In this document: one piece after another, positions 3,134-41,241 of the stretch
Layout: the number at the start of each line of letters is the position of its first letter
Position numbering within the stretch: the first letter of the stretch is position 1
DNA from: Sphingomonas sp. 28-63-12
GTDB taxonomy: Bacteria > Pseudomonadota > Alphaproteobacteria > Sphingomonadales > Sphingomonadaceae
Length of the DNA: 64,000 nt
NCBI GenBank assembly: GCA_002281535.1
Contig: NCGD01000004.1
Location: 55,208-119,207, forward strand
Direction: 5' to 3'
Program-made: the position numbers and the translations under genes
The notes under the pieces: generated by a model
The model's input: the letters and a program-made list of their open reading frames with translations, nothing else
Database searches by the model: none
Told to the model about the DNA's origin: nothing

Positions 3134-5449
3134 TCAGCGCCGCTTGCCCTGATGGCGAATATTGGCCGGGCGGCCACGATGCTTGATCACCCGCTTCGGC
3201 TTGTCGCCCCGTGGCGCACCGTTGCTGCTGCCCTTTCCATCGACCATTTCGAATCGCAACGCGCCCGATACCGGATTGGCCTCGGCCAGCCTTAGTTGCA
3301 GCCGCATGCCGCTCGAATAGGTCTCGCCGCTGTGTTCGCCGATCAGCGCCTTGGCGGCCTCGTCATAGCGAAAATATTCGCGGCCAATGTCGCGCACCGG
3401 CATCAACCCGTCGCCGCCAATCCCTTCGACCGTGGCGAAGAACCCGAAATTGAGCACGCCGGTGATGCGGGCATCGACCACTTCACCGACGCGTTCGCCG
3501 AGATAGGCCGCGACATAGCGATCGATCGTATCGCGTTCCGCCTCCATCGCCCGGCGCTCCAGCATCGAAATGCTCTCGCCGATTTGCTCCATCGATGCGC
3601 CCTCAGCATCGGTCAGCCCGCCCGGGCCGAGCTTATAGGCGGCGACCAGCGAGCGGTGGACGATCAGATCGGCATAGCGCCTGATCGGCGAGGTGAAATG
3701 CGCGTAACTGCCCAGCGCAAGCCCGAAATGGCCGTGATTGCCGGGCGCATAATAGGCTTGAGTCTGGGTGCGCAGTATCTGCTCCATCACCTGCGGCCGG
3801 AAATCGCTGTCGCCGATCCGGTCGATCACATGGTTAAAGGTCGATGGCTTCACCACCTGCCCCAGCGCGAATTCCACCCCGAAAGTCTTGAGATAATCCT
3901 TGAGCGCGACCAGCTTCTCACGCGAGGGCGGCTCATGGTCGCGGTACATGACCGGCGCCTTTTTCTTCTCCAGCGCCTTGGCCGCCGCGACATTGGCGGC
4001 GATCATATATTCCTCGATCAGCTTGTGCGCATCGAGCCGCTCGCGCGGCGCAACCGACATGATCCGGCCCTTCTCGTCCAGCACCACACGGCGTTCCGGC
4101 AGATCGAGATCAAGCGGCGCCCGCTTCGCCCGCGCGGCGGCCAGCGCCCGCCAGCAGGACCAGAGTGGCAGGAGGGCTGACTCCAGCAAACCGGCATCCC
4201 AGCGAAAGCTGGGATCTTGCGCCGGCAAGGACCCGCCATCGGCCTGAGGCCCCAGCTTCCGCTGGGGCGACGCTTGTTTGGCAGTGTGTGCATCAATCGC
4301 CGCTTGTGCCTCTTCATAAGCGATGTTCGCCGCGATCCGCACCACGGCGCGCGTGAAATGCCAGCTTTTCAGCGCGCCGCCCTTGCTAATCTGCAAATGG
4401 CAAACCAGCGCTGCCCGGTCCTCGCCCTGTTTCAGCGAGCACACATCGGCCGACAGCAATTCGGGCAGCATCGGCACCACCCGGTCGGGGAAATAGACGC
4501 TGTTCCCGCGCCGCCGCGCTTCCTTGTCGATGGCAGAGCCCGGGCGCACATAAAAGCTGACATCGGCAATCGCGACGATCGCCTTCCACCCGCCCGCATT
4601 CTCCGCATCGTCGTCAGGCGTCGCCCACACTGCATCGTCATGGTCACGCGCATCCTCGGGGTCGATCGCGACAATCGGCAGATGCCGCAAATCCTCTCGG
4701 GTCTCACCCAGCGCCTGCCGCGCCACCTCGGCTGCTTCCTCGATCGCCTCGGGCGCAAACTCGACCGGAATGCCCAGCTTGTGGATCGCGATCATCGAGA
4801 AGCTGCGCGGGGCAAACGGATCGCCCAGCACCTGCGTCACCCGCGCGGTGATACGCGGCGGGCGCCCGGTCTTCTCCGCCAGGACCAGATCGCCCGGATT
4901 GGCGCCGCCAGCTTCTGAGACCTGATGTTCGCGCCGCTCGCGCTTATCGACGCCGATCAGCCAAAGCTTGCCGCCCTCCTCGCGCAACACGCCGAGCATC
5001 AACTCCTCACCCTTGGCGAGCGATTTCAGCGGATGTGCGATCCAGCCATTGCCGGCCTCCTCGGTCCGCGCGAGAATCCGGTCGCCGATGCCGAGCGCCC
5101 CGCGCCGGCTCTTTTCCTTCACGCGCAACCGGGGCGCGGGCGTATCCGCCTGCCAACTCTCAGGCACCGCCCAGCATTGCCCGTCATCGCCGACATCGGT
5201 GACGCGCAGCACCGTCACCTTGGGCACACCGCCCATCTGATGGAACGCGCGGCCCGGCGCACTGTCGATCAGCCCCTCATCGGCCATGTCCTTCAACAGG
5301 GCCTTGAGCGCGATCTTCTCCGCGCCGTGCAGGCCGAACGCCTTGGCGATCTCGCGCTTACCGACCGAGGTATCGGCCGAGGCAATGAAATCGAGGATCT
5401 GCTTGGAGGTGGGCAGGCCGGCGGAGGGCTTGGAAGTGAATTTAGGCAT
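3134..5449 (-). CDS. rnr: ribonuclease R
   Basis: RNase R is a 3'-5' hydrolytic exoribonuclease that degrades structured RNA. The 771-residue product has an N-terminal winged-helix region, cold-shock domains, an RNB catalytic core (the acidic cluster DPEDARDHDDAV near residue 270) and a C-terminal S1 domain with a basic tail. I chose the ATG at 5449 (MPKFTSKP); a TTG at 5485 would add 12 residues. Residues of about 393-418 are encoded by an intact palindromic repeat element (see 4194-4272) that lies in a variable linker of the RNB domain and keeps the frame open. It is divergent from glpD with 79 bp between starts. Confidence 0.95.
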   Translation of the reverse strand: MPKFTSKPSAGLPTSKQILDFIASADTSVGKREIAKAFGLHGAEKIALKALLKDMADEGLIDSAPGRAFHQMGGVPKVTVLRVTDVGDDGQCWAVPESWQADTPAPRLRVKEKSRRGALGIGDRILARTEEAGNGWIAHPLKSLAKGEELMLGVLREEGGKLWLIGVDKRERREHQVSEAGGANPGDLVLAEKTGRPPRITARVTQVLGDPFAPRSFSMIAIHKLGIPVEFAPEAIEEAAEVARQALGETREDLRHLPIVAIDPEDARDHDDAVWATPDDDAENAGGWKAIVAIADVSFYVRPGSAIDKEARRRGNSVYFPDRVVPMLPELLSADVCSLKQGEDRAALVCHLQISKGGALKSWHFTRAVVRIAANIAYEEAQAAIDAHTAKQASPQRKLGPQADGGSLPAQDPSFRWDAGLLESALLPLWSCWRALAAARAKRAPLDLDLPERRVVLDEKGRIMSVAPRERLDAHKLIEEYMIAANVAAAKALEKKKAPVMYRDHEPPSREKLVALKDYLKTFGVEFALGQVVKPSTFNHVIDRIGDSDFRPQVMEQILRTQTQAYYAPGNHGHFGLALGSYAHFTSPIRRYADLIVHRSLVAAYKLGPGGLTDAEGASMEQIGESISMLERRAMEAERDTIDRYVAAYLGERVGEVVDARITGVLNFGFFATVEGIGGDGLMPVRDIGREYFRYDEAAKALIGEHSGETYSSGMRLQLRLAEANPVSGALRFEMVDGKGSSNGAPRGDKPKRVIKHRGRPANIRHQGKRR
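4194..4272. repeat. palindromic repeat element translated inside rnr
   Basis: Two hairpins sit about 35 bp apart: ATCCCAGC-GAAA-GCTGGGAT at 4196-4215 and CCCCAGC-TTCC-GCTGGGG at 4250-4267, followed by CGACG. The layout (stem with GAAA loop, spacer, stem with TTCC loop, flanking C/GACG) is the same as in the intergenic element at 41150-41230. Here it lies inside the rnr reading frame and adds about 26 residues, including SPQRKLG and PSFRWDAG on the rnr strand. Confidence 0.85.
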
Positions 5450-5528
5450 CGCCAAGGGGATAGGCGGTCGCGCGCCAGTTACCAAATTCCTTCTGTGCGA
5501 ATGGACGCCACCAAGCTATCGGACAGCG

Positions 5529-17906: not shown

Positions 17907-17925
17907 CGGATTATTTCCTAGATTG

Positions 17926-18006
17926 CGTCACCCCGGCGAAAGCCGGGGTCTCTGCAGCGCGCGCGATGTGCTCGCCACGAGAGATACCAGCATGCGCTGA
18001 CATGAT
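17926..18006. repeat. palindromic repeat in gcvH-gcvPA spacer (degenerate copy)
   Basis: ACCCCGGC-GAAA-GCCGGGGT at 17930-17949 is a perfect 8-bp stem preceded by CGTC. The second half is worn: a CAGC-ATGC-GCTG stem near 17988-17999. The order matches the intact copy at 41150-41230. It is placed inside an operon, where it could affect differential mRNA stability. Confidence 0.7.
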
Positions 18007-18024
18007 GCGATTAGCCGAAGATAT

Positions 18025-19597: not shown

Positions 19598-19815
19598 TGG
19601 TCAGCCGCCCCCTCTGTCACGGAACCTGAGAGCTTTCGCCGCGCGCCTTGTGGCGCGTGCCGGCTTACCCCTTCGGTGGGCTCCGCGAACGCCGCGAAGC
19701 CGCTTTCCAGAGTGTCGTATCAGGTCAGCGCGGTCCCGATTGCCTGAGAGATTCCGGGGCGGTTGCTCCTTCGGCGGTGGGCTTCCCGTGAAGGATCCCA
19801 CGCTCTCCCGCGCTT
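19598..19815 (-). promoter_or_regulatory. tandem glycine riboswitch
   Basis: Read on the minus strand, this leader contains two copies of the glycine aptamer core. The first (about 19815-19730) has GGGAGAG, CCGCCGAAGGAGCAA and AATCTCTCAGGCAA. The second (about 19710-19600) has CACCGAAGGGGTAAGCC, AAGCTCTCAGG and GACAGAGGGG. These are conserved elements of the tandem glycine riboswitch, which switches on gcv expression when glycine is abundant. It lies 54 bp upstream of gcvT. No clear expression-platform terminator is visible, so control may be at translation initiation. Confidence 0.92.
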
Positions 19816-19887
19816 ACCCATGACGGTTACCCGCCATCGACAAACAAGCTTTGACGCGCCGCAGCAACCGAGTCAATCGGCCTGGGG

Positions 19888-38795: not shown

Positions 38796-41129
38796 TCAAC
38801 CTTCTATCTTCGAAAAATCAGCGACACCATGTACTGCACCCCGGACGCGCGCCAGCAAGGCGAGCCGCGCGGCGCGCTTGGCGGGAACCGGATCATTGAC
38901 GATCACGGTTTCAAAAAACGCATCGATCGGCGCACGGAGCGACGCGAGCGCCGCCATTGCACCTTCGAAATCTTCGGCGACAACGGCGGCGGTAGCGGCG
39001 GGTTCCGCCACGTCGAGCGCCGCGATAAGCGCGGCTTCGGCGGGTTCGGGGGTGTAGGGCAGCGAATTTTCTGCAGCGGCGCCGTGCTCCGGCGCAGGCC
39101 GGAGCACGGCGTTGCTGGGGTTGTCGCTCGAACCCAGGGCTCCGGCCTGCGCCGGAGCACTGGCGGCCCAGCCCTCCTTCTTCAAAATATTCGCCGCCCG
39201 CTTGTAGCCGGCGAGTAGGTTTGCGCCGTCTGCGGTGCCGATGAACGCCTGCAACGCATGGACGCGGGCGAGCAGGCGGACGAGGTCATCCTCGCCGCCG
39301 AGCGCGAACACCGCGTCGATCAGGTCGTGCCGGACCCCTGCCTCGCGTTGCTGGACTTTGAGGCGGTCTACTAGGAAGGTAAGCAGTTCTCCCGCAACAG
39401 AGTCTATGTAACTTAAGAAGGTTACACGCGAACCAACCGTCTTCGTACCCCCCCGCGCCGATGCGTTATGCTGCTCGGAAAGCTCCCGGATAGCCGGAAT
39501 CTGTTCTACCAGATTGGCGGCTTCCCGATAAATATCACCTTGAGATCCACGCAGACCCGTTTGGAAAATTGAAGAAACTCCAATCACTGCGCGTCGCAGG
39601 GCAAAGGGGTCTTTGGAGCCGGTTGGCCGCTCGTCCATCGCAAAAAAGCTGGCCAACGTATCCAGCTTATCCGCCAAACTCACCGCCACCGTCACCGGAT
39701 CGGTCGGCACGGCATCGCCTGCGCCCACCGGCTTGTAGTGATCGCGGATGGCGGCGGCGACGCGGGGGTCTTCGCCTTGGGCGGCGGCGTAATAGCCGCC
39801 CATGATGCCCTGCAGCTCGGGGAATTCGCCGACCATGCCGGTGACGAGATCGGCCTTGCAGAGCCGCGCCGCGCGCTCGGCGAAGGTGGCGAGTTCTTTG
39901 AGCCCCTCCCCTTCAGGGGAGGCGTTGGGGTGGGGACTGCGAGTCTCACCGAGATCGGGGGTTGTGGGGATAGCCCCCACCCCAACCCCTCCCCTGACGG
40001 GGAGGGGCTTTACGATGCCCTCTTCGACCAGCCAACGGGCCAGCTTGGCGACGCGATCGACCTTGTCGGCGACGGTGCCAAGCTTTTCGTGAAACACGAT
40101 GCGATCTAGCTTTGCCGCCTGCTCCTCGAGCGGCACCTTCAGATCGGTGTCGTAGAAGAATTTCGCATCCGACAGCCGCGCAGCGAGCACCTTGCGGTTG
40201 CCGTCGATGATGCGCGTGCCGCCGTCCGCCGCGTCGATATTGGCGGTGCAGATGAAGGCGTTCGCTAATTTCCCCTCCGCATCGGCGCAGACGAAATATT
40301 TCTGGTTTACGCGCGCCGTCAGCTGGATCACCTCGGGCGGCACCTGCAGAAACGCTTCATCGAAGCGGCCGAGCAGCGGCACCGGCCATTCGGTGAGCCC
40401 GGCATTTTCGATCAGCAGGCCTTCGTCCTTGATCAACTCAAGCCCGGCCTTGCGCGCGGCCATGGTCGCGCCGAGCGCGATGATCTGGGCGCGTTCGGCC
40501 TGATCGACGATCACATGGTCGTCACGGAGCTGATCGGCATAGGTTGCCGCGCTCTCGATGCTGATCGGGCCGGCGGCATGGAAGCGGTGGCCCATTGTCG
40601 CGCGCCCGCTGGCGATGCCGGCGATTTCGCAGGGGACCACGTCACGCCCGAGCAGCGCAACGATGCCCTGCAGCGGGCGGACCCATTTCAGGCTTTCGGT
40701 CGAGCTTGAAGCATCGCCCCAGCGCATCGATTTGGGCCAGGGAAAGGCGCGGATGATGTTGGGGATGGCCTCTGCCAGCACGTCCGCGGTGGCGCGGCCG
40801 GGCTTGTCGATGACGGCGAAAAGCACGCCGTCGCGCTCGACGAGTTGCTCACGGGTGAGGCCGGTTTTGCGCAGGAAACCTTCGAGCGCTTGCGGGGGGG
40901 CGCTGGTTTTGGGGCCCTTGATCTCCTCCGACACCGCTGCGGTTTCGAGCGGCAGGTTGCGCGCGATGAGGGTCAGGCGGCGCGGGGTGGAGAAGGTTTC
41001 GTGCTCGCTGTCAGTGATGCCCGCCGCTGCCAGCGCTGCAACATACAGCCGAGCAAGATCGTCACGCGCCTTGGCCTGCATGCGCGCCGGGATTTCTTCG
41101 GAGCGAAGCTCGAGCAGGAAGTCGGTCAT
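38796..41129 (-). CDS. glyS: glycyl-tRNA synthetase beta subunit, with inserted repeat peptides
   Basis: GlyS is the large, tRNA-binding subunit of the alpha2beta2 glycyl-tRNA synthetase. The N terminus DFLLELRSEEIPARMQ is diagnostic. At 777 residues it is about 80 longer than the usual ~690. The excess lies in three places: residues ~374-410 and ~656-682 are encoded by palindromic repeat elements (39901-40009, 39084-39160), and residues ~513-589 come from a segment of unusual codon use (39363-39590). The frame is intact throughout, and the C-terminal anticodon-binding part (VNDPVPAKRAARLALLARVR) is present. The start has no strong Shine-Dalgarno; a repeat element lies just upstream. Confidence 0.93.
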   Translation of the reverse strand: MTDFLLELRSEEIPARMQAKARDDLARLYVAALAAAGITDSEHETFSTPRRLTLIARNLPLETAAVSEEIKGPKTSAPPQALEGFLRKTGLTREQLVERDGVLFAVIDKPGRATADVLAEAIPNIIRAFPWPKSMRWGDASSSTESLKWVRPLQGIVALLGRDVVPCEIAGIASGRATMGHRFHAAGPISIESAATYADQLRDDHVIVDQAERAQIIALGATMAARKAGLELIKDEGLLIENAGLTEWPVPLLGRFDEAFLQVPPEVIQLTARVNQKYFVCADAEGKLANAFICTANIDAADGGTRIIDGNRKVLAARLSDAKFFYDTDLKVPLEEQAAKLDRIVFHEKLGTVADKVDRVAKLARWLVEEGIVKPLPVRGGVGVGAIPTTPDLGETRSPHPNASPEGEGLKELATFAERAARLCKADLVTGMVGEFPELQGIMGGYYAAAQGEDPRVAAAIRDHYKPVGAGDAVPTDPVTVAVSLADKLDTLASFFAMDERPTGSKDPFALRRAVIGVSSIFQTGLRGSQGDIYREAANLVEQIPAIRELSEQHNASARGGTKTVGSRVTFLSYIDSVAGELLTFLVDRLKVQQREAGVRHDLIDAVFALGGEDDLVRLLARVHALQAFIGTADGANLLAGYKRAANILKKEGWAASAPAQAGALGSSDNPSNAVLRPAPEHGAAAENSLPYTPEPAEAALIAALDVAEPAATAAVVAEDFEGAMAALASLRAPIDAFFETVIVNDPVPAKRAARLALLARVRGAVHGVADFSKIEG
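39084..39160. repeat. palindromic repeat element translated inside glyS (copy 2)
   Basis: GTGCTCCGG-N6-CCGGAGCAC (39084-39107) and GCTCCGGC-CTGC-GCCGGAGC (39139-39158) are two perfect stems 31 bp apart. On the glyS strand they encode about 26 alanine/proline-rich residues (APAQAGALGSS, then RPAPEHG) in the linker before the anticodon-binding domain. The stems differ from the rnr element, so this is a second family. Confidence 0.8.
39363..39590 (-). other. segment of atypical codon use within glyS
   Basis: This ~230-bp stretch of glyS is visibly AT-richer than its flanks and uses codons rare elsewhere in the window (ATA, TTA, CTA, GTA, AGT, TCT). The sequence encoded (IFQTGLRGSQGDIYREAANL, then TFLSYIDSVAGELLTFL) sits between the conserved DPFALRRA and DRLKVQQREAGVRHDLIDA blocks. 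That interval is shorter in the GlyS proteins I know. It may be a recombined segment. Confidence 0.6.
39901..40009. repeat. palindromic repeat element translated inside glyS (copy 1)
   Basis: CCTCCCC-TTCA-GGGGAGG at 39905-39922 and CCCCTCCCC-TGAC-GGGGAGGGG at 39986-40007 form two stems, with inverted GTTGGGGTGGGG / CCCCACCCCAAC blocks between them. The whole ~108-bp element is bounded by AGCCCC and GGGGCT and could fold into one long structure. It is read through in frame in glyS and gives glycine/proline-rich sequence (PLPVRGGVGVG, then HPNASPEGEGL). Confidence 0.85.
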
Positions 41130-41149
41130 GCGGGCACACCGCTAATCAT

Positions 41150-41230
41150 CGTCACCCCAGCGAAAGCTGGGGTCTCGTGCCACGAACCGCGCCCTTGCGG
41201 CGCGAGATCCCGGCTTCCGCCGGGATGACG
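41150..41230. repeat. intact palindromic repeat element in glyQ-glyS spacer
   Basis: The element reads CGTC, stem ACCCCAGC-GAAA-GCTGGGGT (41154-41173), a 33-bp spacer with an inner CGCGCCC..GGCGCG stem, stem ATCCCGGC-TTCC-GCCGGGAT (41207-41226), then GACG. It fills most of the 112-bp gap between two genes of one operon. It is the best-preserved copy of the family also seen in rnr and between gcvH and gcvPA. Confidence 0.9.
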
Positions 41231-41241
41231 GGGATTGATAG

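Follow-up and report, generated by a model that had tools for sequence, protein, structure and literature searches.

The rnr gene of Sphingomonas sp. 28-63-12, which codes for RNase R, raises the question of how a palindromic repeat comes to be read as part of a conserved enzyme, and of whether its presence there is tolerated, targeted or useful. The gene lies in a window of 64,000 nucleotides (the whole stretch of DNA analysed here), for which a first-pass annotation had proposed, from the sequence alone, a two-hairpin element translated in frame within rnr. The explanation that we consider probable is that a dispersed palindromic repeat of the CGTC-1 type entered a permissive RNase R linker in frame and is tolerated there, subject to a protein-level filter.

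The element in RNase R and related palindromes in the same genome

The rnr product is recognized by the NCBIfam model TIGR02063 (RNase_R) with 581.7 bits (E 2e-174), slightly below the cut-off of 597.85, and its Pfam RNB domain spans residues 263-616; the ATG found 12 codons past the first TTG may be the true start. The RNB domain contains a variable linker, flanked by conserved motifs, in which the palindromic element (family A) occupies about residues 405-432 (Table 1). The bounds of the element are the joint span of covariance-model matches on both strands. Both parts of the original proposal are borne out: the hairpins with GAAA and TTCC loops are two perfect stems inside the rnr reading frame, and the element lies in frame within the RNB-domain linker.

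Table 1. Positions of the rnr and glyS features and of the family A copies in the window
Feature	Position	Strand	Description
rnr, RNase R coding sequence	3134..5485	minus	783 codons from first TTG
RNB-domain variable linker	4166..4300	minus	45 residues, AIDAHTAKQ...LLESALLP, flanked by conserved YEEAQA and LWSCW
Family A in-frame palindromic element (CGTC-tagged REP dimer)	4191..4273	minus	read as about ASPQRKLGPQADGGSLPAQDPSFRWDAG
Hairpin 1 in rnr	4196..4215		perfect 8-bp stem, 4-nt GAAA loop
Hairpin 2 in rnr	4249..4268		perfect 8-bp stem, 4-nt TTCC loop
Third, weaker family A copy	17925..18008		not flagged in a reading frame
glyS, beta subunit of glycyl-tRNA synthetase	38796..41129	minus	contains an in-frame palindrome of its own
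Family E in-frame palindromic element in glyS	39901..40011	minus	read as KPLPVRGGVGVGAIPTTPDLGETRSPHPNASPEGEGL
Family A copy outside reading frames	41149..41231		just upstream of glyS

The RNA fold of the rnr copy is only moderately better than that of dinucleotide shuffles (z -2.47, with 4 of 200 shuffles as good; z -2.28 when scored with the other linkers), and it is the copy number that marks the element as a repeat. In the rnr mRNA both hairpins can alternatively pair into one long stem of -47.8 kcal/mol. An AlphaFold2 model of RNase R is poor (mean pLDDT 59.8); in it residues 408-427 (pLDDT<50) are predicted as coil between helices 390-405 and 431-454. Alignment to the structure 5XGU, which we take to be E. 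coli RNase R, leaves 18 residues between the aligned blocks at the position of the linker.

With the DNA of the element as query, 19 matches were recovered from its own genome at E<=1e-3, with the self-match included and some places counted on both strands. A covariance model (R1) built from eight family A copies gave 119 rows at E<=0.01, which merge into at least 61 separate places within the 3.48 Mb genome. Scoring covered 150 of the 1762 candidates, so that this figure is a minimum, and the weakest rows may be fortuitous. The hairpins are thus dispersed across the genome. From the alignment, the family A consensus is about CGTCAYCCCRGCGAAAGCYGGGRTCTC, followed by a spacer and then the CGTCAYCCCRGCGAAAGCYGGGRTCTC unit inverted. 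The copy that the first-pass annotation had placed outside genes was confirmed, and no reading frame was found to contain it; the window also holds a third (Table 1).

To identify in-frame copies, the codon score was evaluated on both flanks of 62 family A stretches (the 61 places, with two overlapping matches on contig C30 taken separately). Three of them were flagged as in frame within a gene and the other 59 were not. The three lie in rnr, in the gene for propionyl-CoA carboxylase alpha (L002; identified by its Pfam PCC_BT and biotin carboxylase domains) and in that for a dnaE2-type polymerase (L139), the last being a weak match (E 7e-4). Repeats of other families account for 22 further matches in this genome, both strands counted, and family E is in frame in glyS, putA (L319) and ileS (L325). 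The ileS cases (L325, L328) were accepted by gene identity, the codon-score cut-off not being passed on both sides; further on in L325 a second repeat-like stretch (SLSQREREG...PLPMGEGEEG) is read through, as judged by eye. Two 24-nt own-genome matches in open coding frames (L332, L333) were set aside as too short.

A search of this genome for the Y1/RAYT transposase domain (PF01797, Y1_Tnp) found none; the domain is present in four of the 61 genomes of the genus sample. Rfam models at gathering thresholds recovered only glycine riboswitches from the window, namely a tandem pair of aptamers at 19604-19820 on the minus strand (two matches of RF00504).

Occupancy and turnover of the RNase R linker across species

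The linker, delimited by YEDAQA and LWxCW, was readable in 134 of 138 RNase R loci: 57 of 58 from the same genus and 77 of 80 from named records (the exceptions are L066, L146, L192 and L195). A repeat sits in this linker in 39 of the 115 distinct RNase R genes compared across Sphingomonas and related organisms, and the linker then measures 22-82 residues. In the 76 distinct genes where no repeat was recognised, its length is 15-25 residues in 61 cases and 27-47 in the other 15; either the linker also lengthens by other means, or these 15 hold unrecognised repeats.

The inserts are divisible by signature into seven families: A, B, B', C, D, E and F. Families C, D and E are alike in architecture and may constitute one superfamily, as may B and B'. 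Signatures are present in 38 of 115 linkers, compared with nine sites in the 264 kb of remaining rnr ORF sequence, three of which are probably upstream of the start codon; the signature patterns differed slightly between family labelling and the counts for density and the rest of the ORF. A joined query of eight rnr linkers retrieved 40-98 matches per genome in 12 genomes, both strands counted, and family D alone retrieved 55-88 in four of four genomes. Among the matches listed, the B, B', C, E and F segments also match places besides rnr, and the A' segment has a non-rnr match in another genome only. By NCBI record title, two carriers belong to other genera, L158 (B') to Sphingobium and L193 (A) to Stakelama. 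By eye, another genus of the family (L287) has a B'-like insert at the same rnr site, and the linker is short in the ten or so RNase R loci read from beyond the family.

Several individual records deserve mention in their own right. A long composite palindrome, with E arms and a second multi-hairpin unit within, is found in L028 and L194 and has copies in G008, G022 and G051; it is itself a dispersed repeat, with at most 92% identity between genomes. The RNase R frame of L066 (G026) is fragmented by in-frame stops, although that genome is one contig. Genome G035, with a completeness of 81%, has two different full-length rnr matches (L023 and one on contig C87), which could be two copies or mixed strains. 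A record titled Bacillus sp. 2B10 (L216) has a Sphingomonas-like RNase R (69% identity) and is probably a mislabelled or contaminated genome.

It is hardly credible that these inserts are artefacts, be it of a spurious ORF, of misassembly or of convergent low-complexity sequence. Some of the genomes are indeed MAGs, GC-rich stems resemble one another and family labels derive from short signatures; however, conserved sequence flanks the insert on both sides in rnr, in glyS and in the carboxylase gene, rnr inserts occur in named isolates and in one- or two-contig genomes (G010, G021, G008), and many of the inserts align with multicopy repeats along 80-170 nt.

The history of the site was traced on a FastTree phylogeny of the 115 distinct RNase R proteins with the linker removed. 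The tree requires at least 28 changes of presence or absence and 33 of family; in presence the tree is nearly as scattered as with shuffled labels (mean 32.6, range 26-38), and the phylogenetic signal is hence weak. Nine of the 39 labelled elements, the window's own included, have z above -3, and under stricter labelling (z<=-3), which keeps 30 rows, the tree has 22 presence and 26 family changes. Counting element rows only, the family changes are 20; merging C/D/E and B/B' gives change counts of 32 and 13. Before the tree was built, L173 and L209 were set by hand to none, as were the short remnants L039, L145, L020, L021, L183, L187 and L219, and L051 and L147 were labelled C by hand. The assignment of L210 to family A by its signature was ruled out, as alignment shows a decayed F.

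Comparisons between close relatives reveal these changes directly. L051 and L052 are 96-97% identical in their flanks, yet the DNA alignment places family C in the former and F in the latter, with the decayed F of L210 beside them. In L144, the sister of the window's gene, family E occupies the place that family A has in the window, and L039 retains an apparent remnant of family E within a short linker. The insertion is therefore lineage-specific, the nearest relatives having another element or a short linker, and no homologous non-repeat segment is common to RNase R of all the relatives aligned. In L187, from the family D clade, 81 nt are gone in frame from the interior of the element with both ends kept; L020 and L021 are as short, with ends that are not recognisable. 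L060 has an extra in-frame palindrome of 57 nt, nested in an element otherwise common to L213 and absent there. Judged by these alignments, the rnr segment is repeat-derived, in frame and not common to the nearest relatives, and in other species this linker has received repeats of several other families, which were gained, internally deleted, degraded, nested or replaced. That elements decay and disappear between close relatives speaks against a strong function of either the hairpin or the peptide.

Recurrence in other genes, reading frame and the alternatives to tolerance

Three further linkers, two of them in GlyS and one in the carboxylase, were scored along with that of RNase R in the 61 genomes, the sites being readable in 56 (GlyS linker 1), 54 (GlyS linker 3), 58 (carboxylase) and 57 (rnr) of them. 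The first 30 glyS and 30 carboxylase loci were best hits and thus biased to inserts, and most of the others were then added. Strongly palindromic inserts (z<=-3 and at least 30 residues) are present in 35 of 56 species at GlyS linker 1, 23 of 54 at GlyS linker 3, 17 of 58 in the carboxylase and 15 of 57 in rnr, whose occupancy by family signature is 22 of 57. GlyS thus has two separate palindrome-hotspot linkers, the first of which is a stronger case than rnr. The dnaE2 gene is a weaker case, with a palindromic linker in three of the best-hit 30 loci (L224, L225, L242) as seen by eye without z-scores. Occupancy is positively associated in three of six site pairs (rnr/GlyS 1, p 0.046; rnr/carboxylase, p 0.008; GlyS 1/carboxylase, p 0.0001), the other three not being significant; such pairwise association is what a genome-wide repeat load would give. 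Given the recurrence in glyS and the carboxylase gene and the single copies in putA, ileS and dnaE2, rnr belongs to a group of permissive genes and is not unique in this respect.

The first-pass annotation had stressed the role of the enzyme in RNA decay; this emphasis is not supported, given the like recurrence at two linkers of glyS and in the propionyl-CoA carboxylase alpha gene. Autoregulation specific to rnr, our first alternative, was dropped after these two genes showed the same pattern. More generally, the hairpin in the rnr mRNA could be selected for a function at the RNA level, for instance as feedback, since RNase R removes structured REP-bearing RNA; we regard this as very improbable. 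RNase R with PNPase is described as targeting REP-containing mRNAs (PMC12320835), and the strongest 140-nt fold of the rnr ORF lies in the linker in 26 of 39 genes with an element against 7 of 76 without. On the other hand, rnr is free of elements in 35 of the 57 species of the genus sample, the recurrence extends to glyS and to the carboxylase gene, the hairpins are decayed or shortened between close relatives (L210, L185, L187), and the choice of reading frame, considered below, tracks the peptide. Mapping of perfect inverted repeats of 12 bp over the length of rnr placed 20 stems in linkers and 51 elsewhere (1.8 versus 0.19 per kb), and discriminated poorly, 44 rows having such a repeat outside the linker.

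The density of repeats in the linker is high. Across 77 loci (three of the 80 were omitted from this count) it amounts to 6.4 elements per kb of ancestral linker, with 25 loci occupied and a length of 51 nt assumed; the noncoding flanks of the same loci have 0.52 per kb, or 1.13 if all flank sites are taken as noncoding, which makes the linker 6-12 times as dense as nearby noncoding DNA. Given the requirement to keep frame and avoid stops, the density in the linker should fall below that of the flanks and not exceed it. The excess may stem from an insertion preference, from longer persistence in ORFs, where a deletion will mostly disrupt the frame, or from a favoured presence, and the data are compatible with each of the three.

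The first of these would amount to site-directed landing: the linkers would contain or become preferred targets, such as an existing palindrome or cruciform, and the hotspot would be partly mutational. This is rather unlikely in our assessment, even with the 6-12-fold excess over the flanks, the different families at one place in near-identical genes (L051 and L052) and the palindrome nested within another (L060 compared with L213), all of which speak in its favour. Families with different ends use the same site, and no target motif or target duplication was noticed on unsystematic inspection; moreover, slower loss in ORFs, where only deletions in multiples of three survive, could by itself give the excess, and the association of occupancy in three of six pairs fits genome-wide repeat load.

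The reading frame bears on what happens after landing. On average 3.9 of the six frames are open per element, and the frame in use is the most disorder-promoting of the open ones in 75 of 91 elements over the four sites, where 25.0 are expected (rnr, 13/19; GlyS 1, 28/34; GlyS 3, 20/22; carboxylase, 14/16). In the control, ordinary rnr coding windows, it is used in 56 of 347, with 92.3 expected. Hydropathy does not differ between used and other frames (p 0.14). The insert peptides contain 14.9% Gly, 14.4% Pro and 0.0% cysteine, and are also rich in Ala and Ser. From the frame choice and the peptide composition we infer a protein-level filter.

A filter of this kind does not require that the peptide be of use. 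The alternative that longer disordered linkers are selected for a benefit to the protein, any in-frame repeat serving the purpose, appears improbable. It would accommodate the strong preference for disorder-promoting frames, the occupancy of GlyS linker 1 in 35 of 56 species and the 15 of 76 linkers that are long without a recognised repeat. Yet purifying selection against harmful peptides predicts the frame choice equally, the linkers at these sites are short in many species, and gain and loss are frequent among close relatives.

Under the tolerance reading, which we prefer, repeats would land widely and selection would remove most landings within genes. The survivors would be those whose open frame gives a Gly/Pro/Ala/Ser-rich, probably disordered peptide, lying in RNase R between two helices and doing little harm, with the mRNA hairpins as a by-product; the same few linkers would fill time after time, as sites that tolerate disordered inserts tens of residues long. 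Against this reading, tolerance alone is not obviously enough for the fullness of the linkers, as seen in the density at rnr and in the 35 of 56 species at GlyS linker 1. It is conceivable, and we put it forward tentatively, that these are fixed docking linkers, i.e. loops in which different palindrome families preferentially insert or are retained as exchangeable cassettes; if true, they would represent convergent protein segments made by selfish DNA, far above the neutral expectation.

Relation to known palindromic repeats

The first-pass annotation had contrasted the free-living alphaproteobacterial host with Rickettsia. S. alaskensis and 'E. lithoralis', which we take to be an Erythrobacter, are presumably both free-living. 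REPs in genes of these two organisms are already on record (PMC3733652), as is the CGTC-1 REP class of alphaproteobacteria itself, some copies of which lie inside genes (Di Nocera et al., 2013; PMC3733652). Family A fits this class in tag, stem, loop and opposed-dimer form: as described in the text of that study, CGTC-1 REPs have a CGTC tag, a stem of 8-9 bp and a loop of 4-5 nt (8 bp and 4 nt being the form in common with family A) and opposed dimers, mostly alphaproteobacterial hosts (S. wittichii is named) and no associated transposase, Y1_Tnp being the one domain searched for here. The two inverted units of family A emerge from both the alignment (A1) and model R1. An unpaired CGTC tag (or TGTC/CCTC) is present at the left end of 42 of the 62 stretches, at the right end of 42 and at both ends of 33; in the rnr copy the left tag is CGGC and the right CGTC. 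Perfect hairpins are found in 63 of 124 half-elements, 53 with 8 bp and a 4-nt loop and 10 with 7 bp and a 4-nt loop. The point of difference is the tail, here mostly CTC and not CCA (CTC in 31 of the 63 hairpins, CTT in 10, CCA in 2); in CGTC-1 it is CCA in most, not all, and variable in several families (PMC3733652). Assignment to the RAYT-mobilised GTAG REPs was rejected, the tag being CGTC and Y1_Tnp being absent from the genome.

The same study places GTAG and CGTC REPs in genes for excinuclease ABC, recBCD, DNA polymerase I, DnaE2, a tRNA synthetase and pseudouridine synthase B, and describes same-site insertion in recB of two Xanthomonas, with different sites in other genes of that functional category (PMC3733652). 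Its main text has no occurrence of 'RNase' or 'ribonuclease', and its supplements could still list RNase R. Beyond this paper, we found no prior account in the open-access literature, supplements excluded, of one linker invaded by many families across species. The CGTC REP class and its presence in genes are hence already known, and the hotspot behaviour across species, of which we found no description, is the new part.

Comparable open frames fused in frame are described for other short inverted-repeat elements, namely ERIC and the 107-bp Correia/NEMIS elements of Neisseria (PMC2229807). Recurrence at one linker is absent from those descriptions, and the likeness drawn here is one of form and reading frame.

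The closest parallel in behaviour is with the Rickettsia palindromic elements (RPEs), found in frame in conserved enzymes, one of which, guanylate kinase, was shown to be translated and active with its RPE (PMC2229807, PMC10969869). The likeness suggested by the first-pass annotation is well founded, in that RPE-4 and RPE-6 are members of the CGTC superfamily (PMC3733652). Family A shares with RPEs the in-frame position within conserved protein genes, as judged by open frame and codon score, translation here being predicted. It differs in that several families use one linker and in that 59 of 62 family A stretches were not flagged in frame; the host is moreover not Rickettsia. It therefore acts like an RPE but is not classed as one, because the nearest RNase R loci are those of Sphingomonas. 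Annotators of sphingomonad proteins should bear in mind that a stretch like SPQRKLG...DPSFRWD or KPLPFRGGVG...PHPNPSPEGEGL can be a translated repeat instead of a domain. RPE-like in-frame palindromes have been known best from Rickettsia, plus scattered single cases; here, dozens of species show the state of a single linker, be it filled by different repeats, empty, or in the midst of loss or replacement. Such a series makes the question of tolerated, targeted or useful directly testable, offers an internal measure of repeat mobility, and constitutes a natural experiment in selfish DNA becoming protein.
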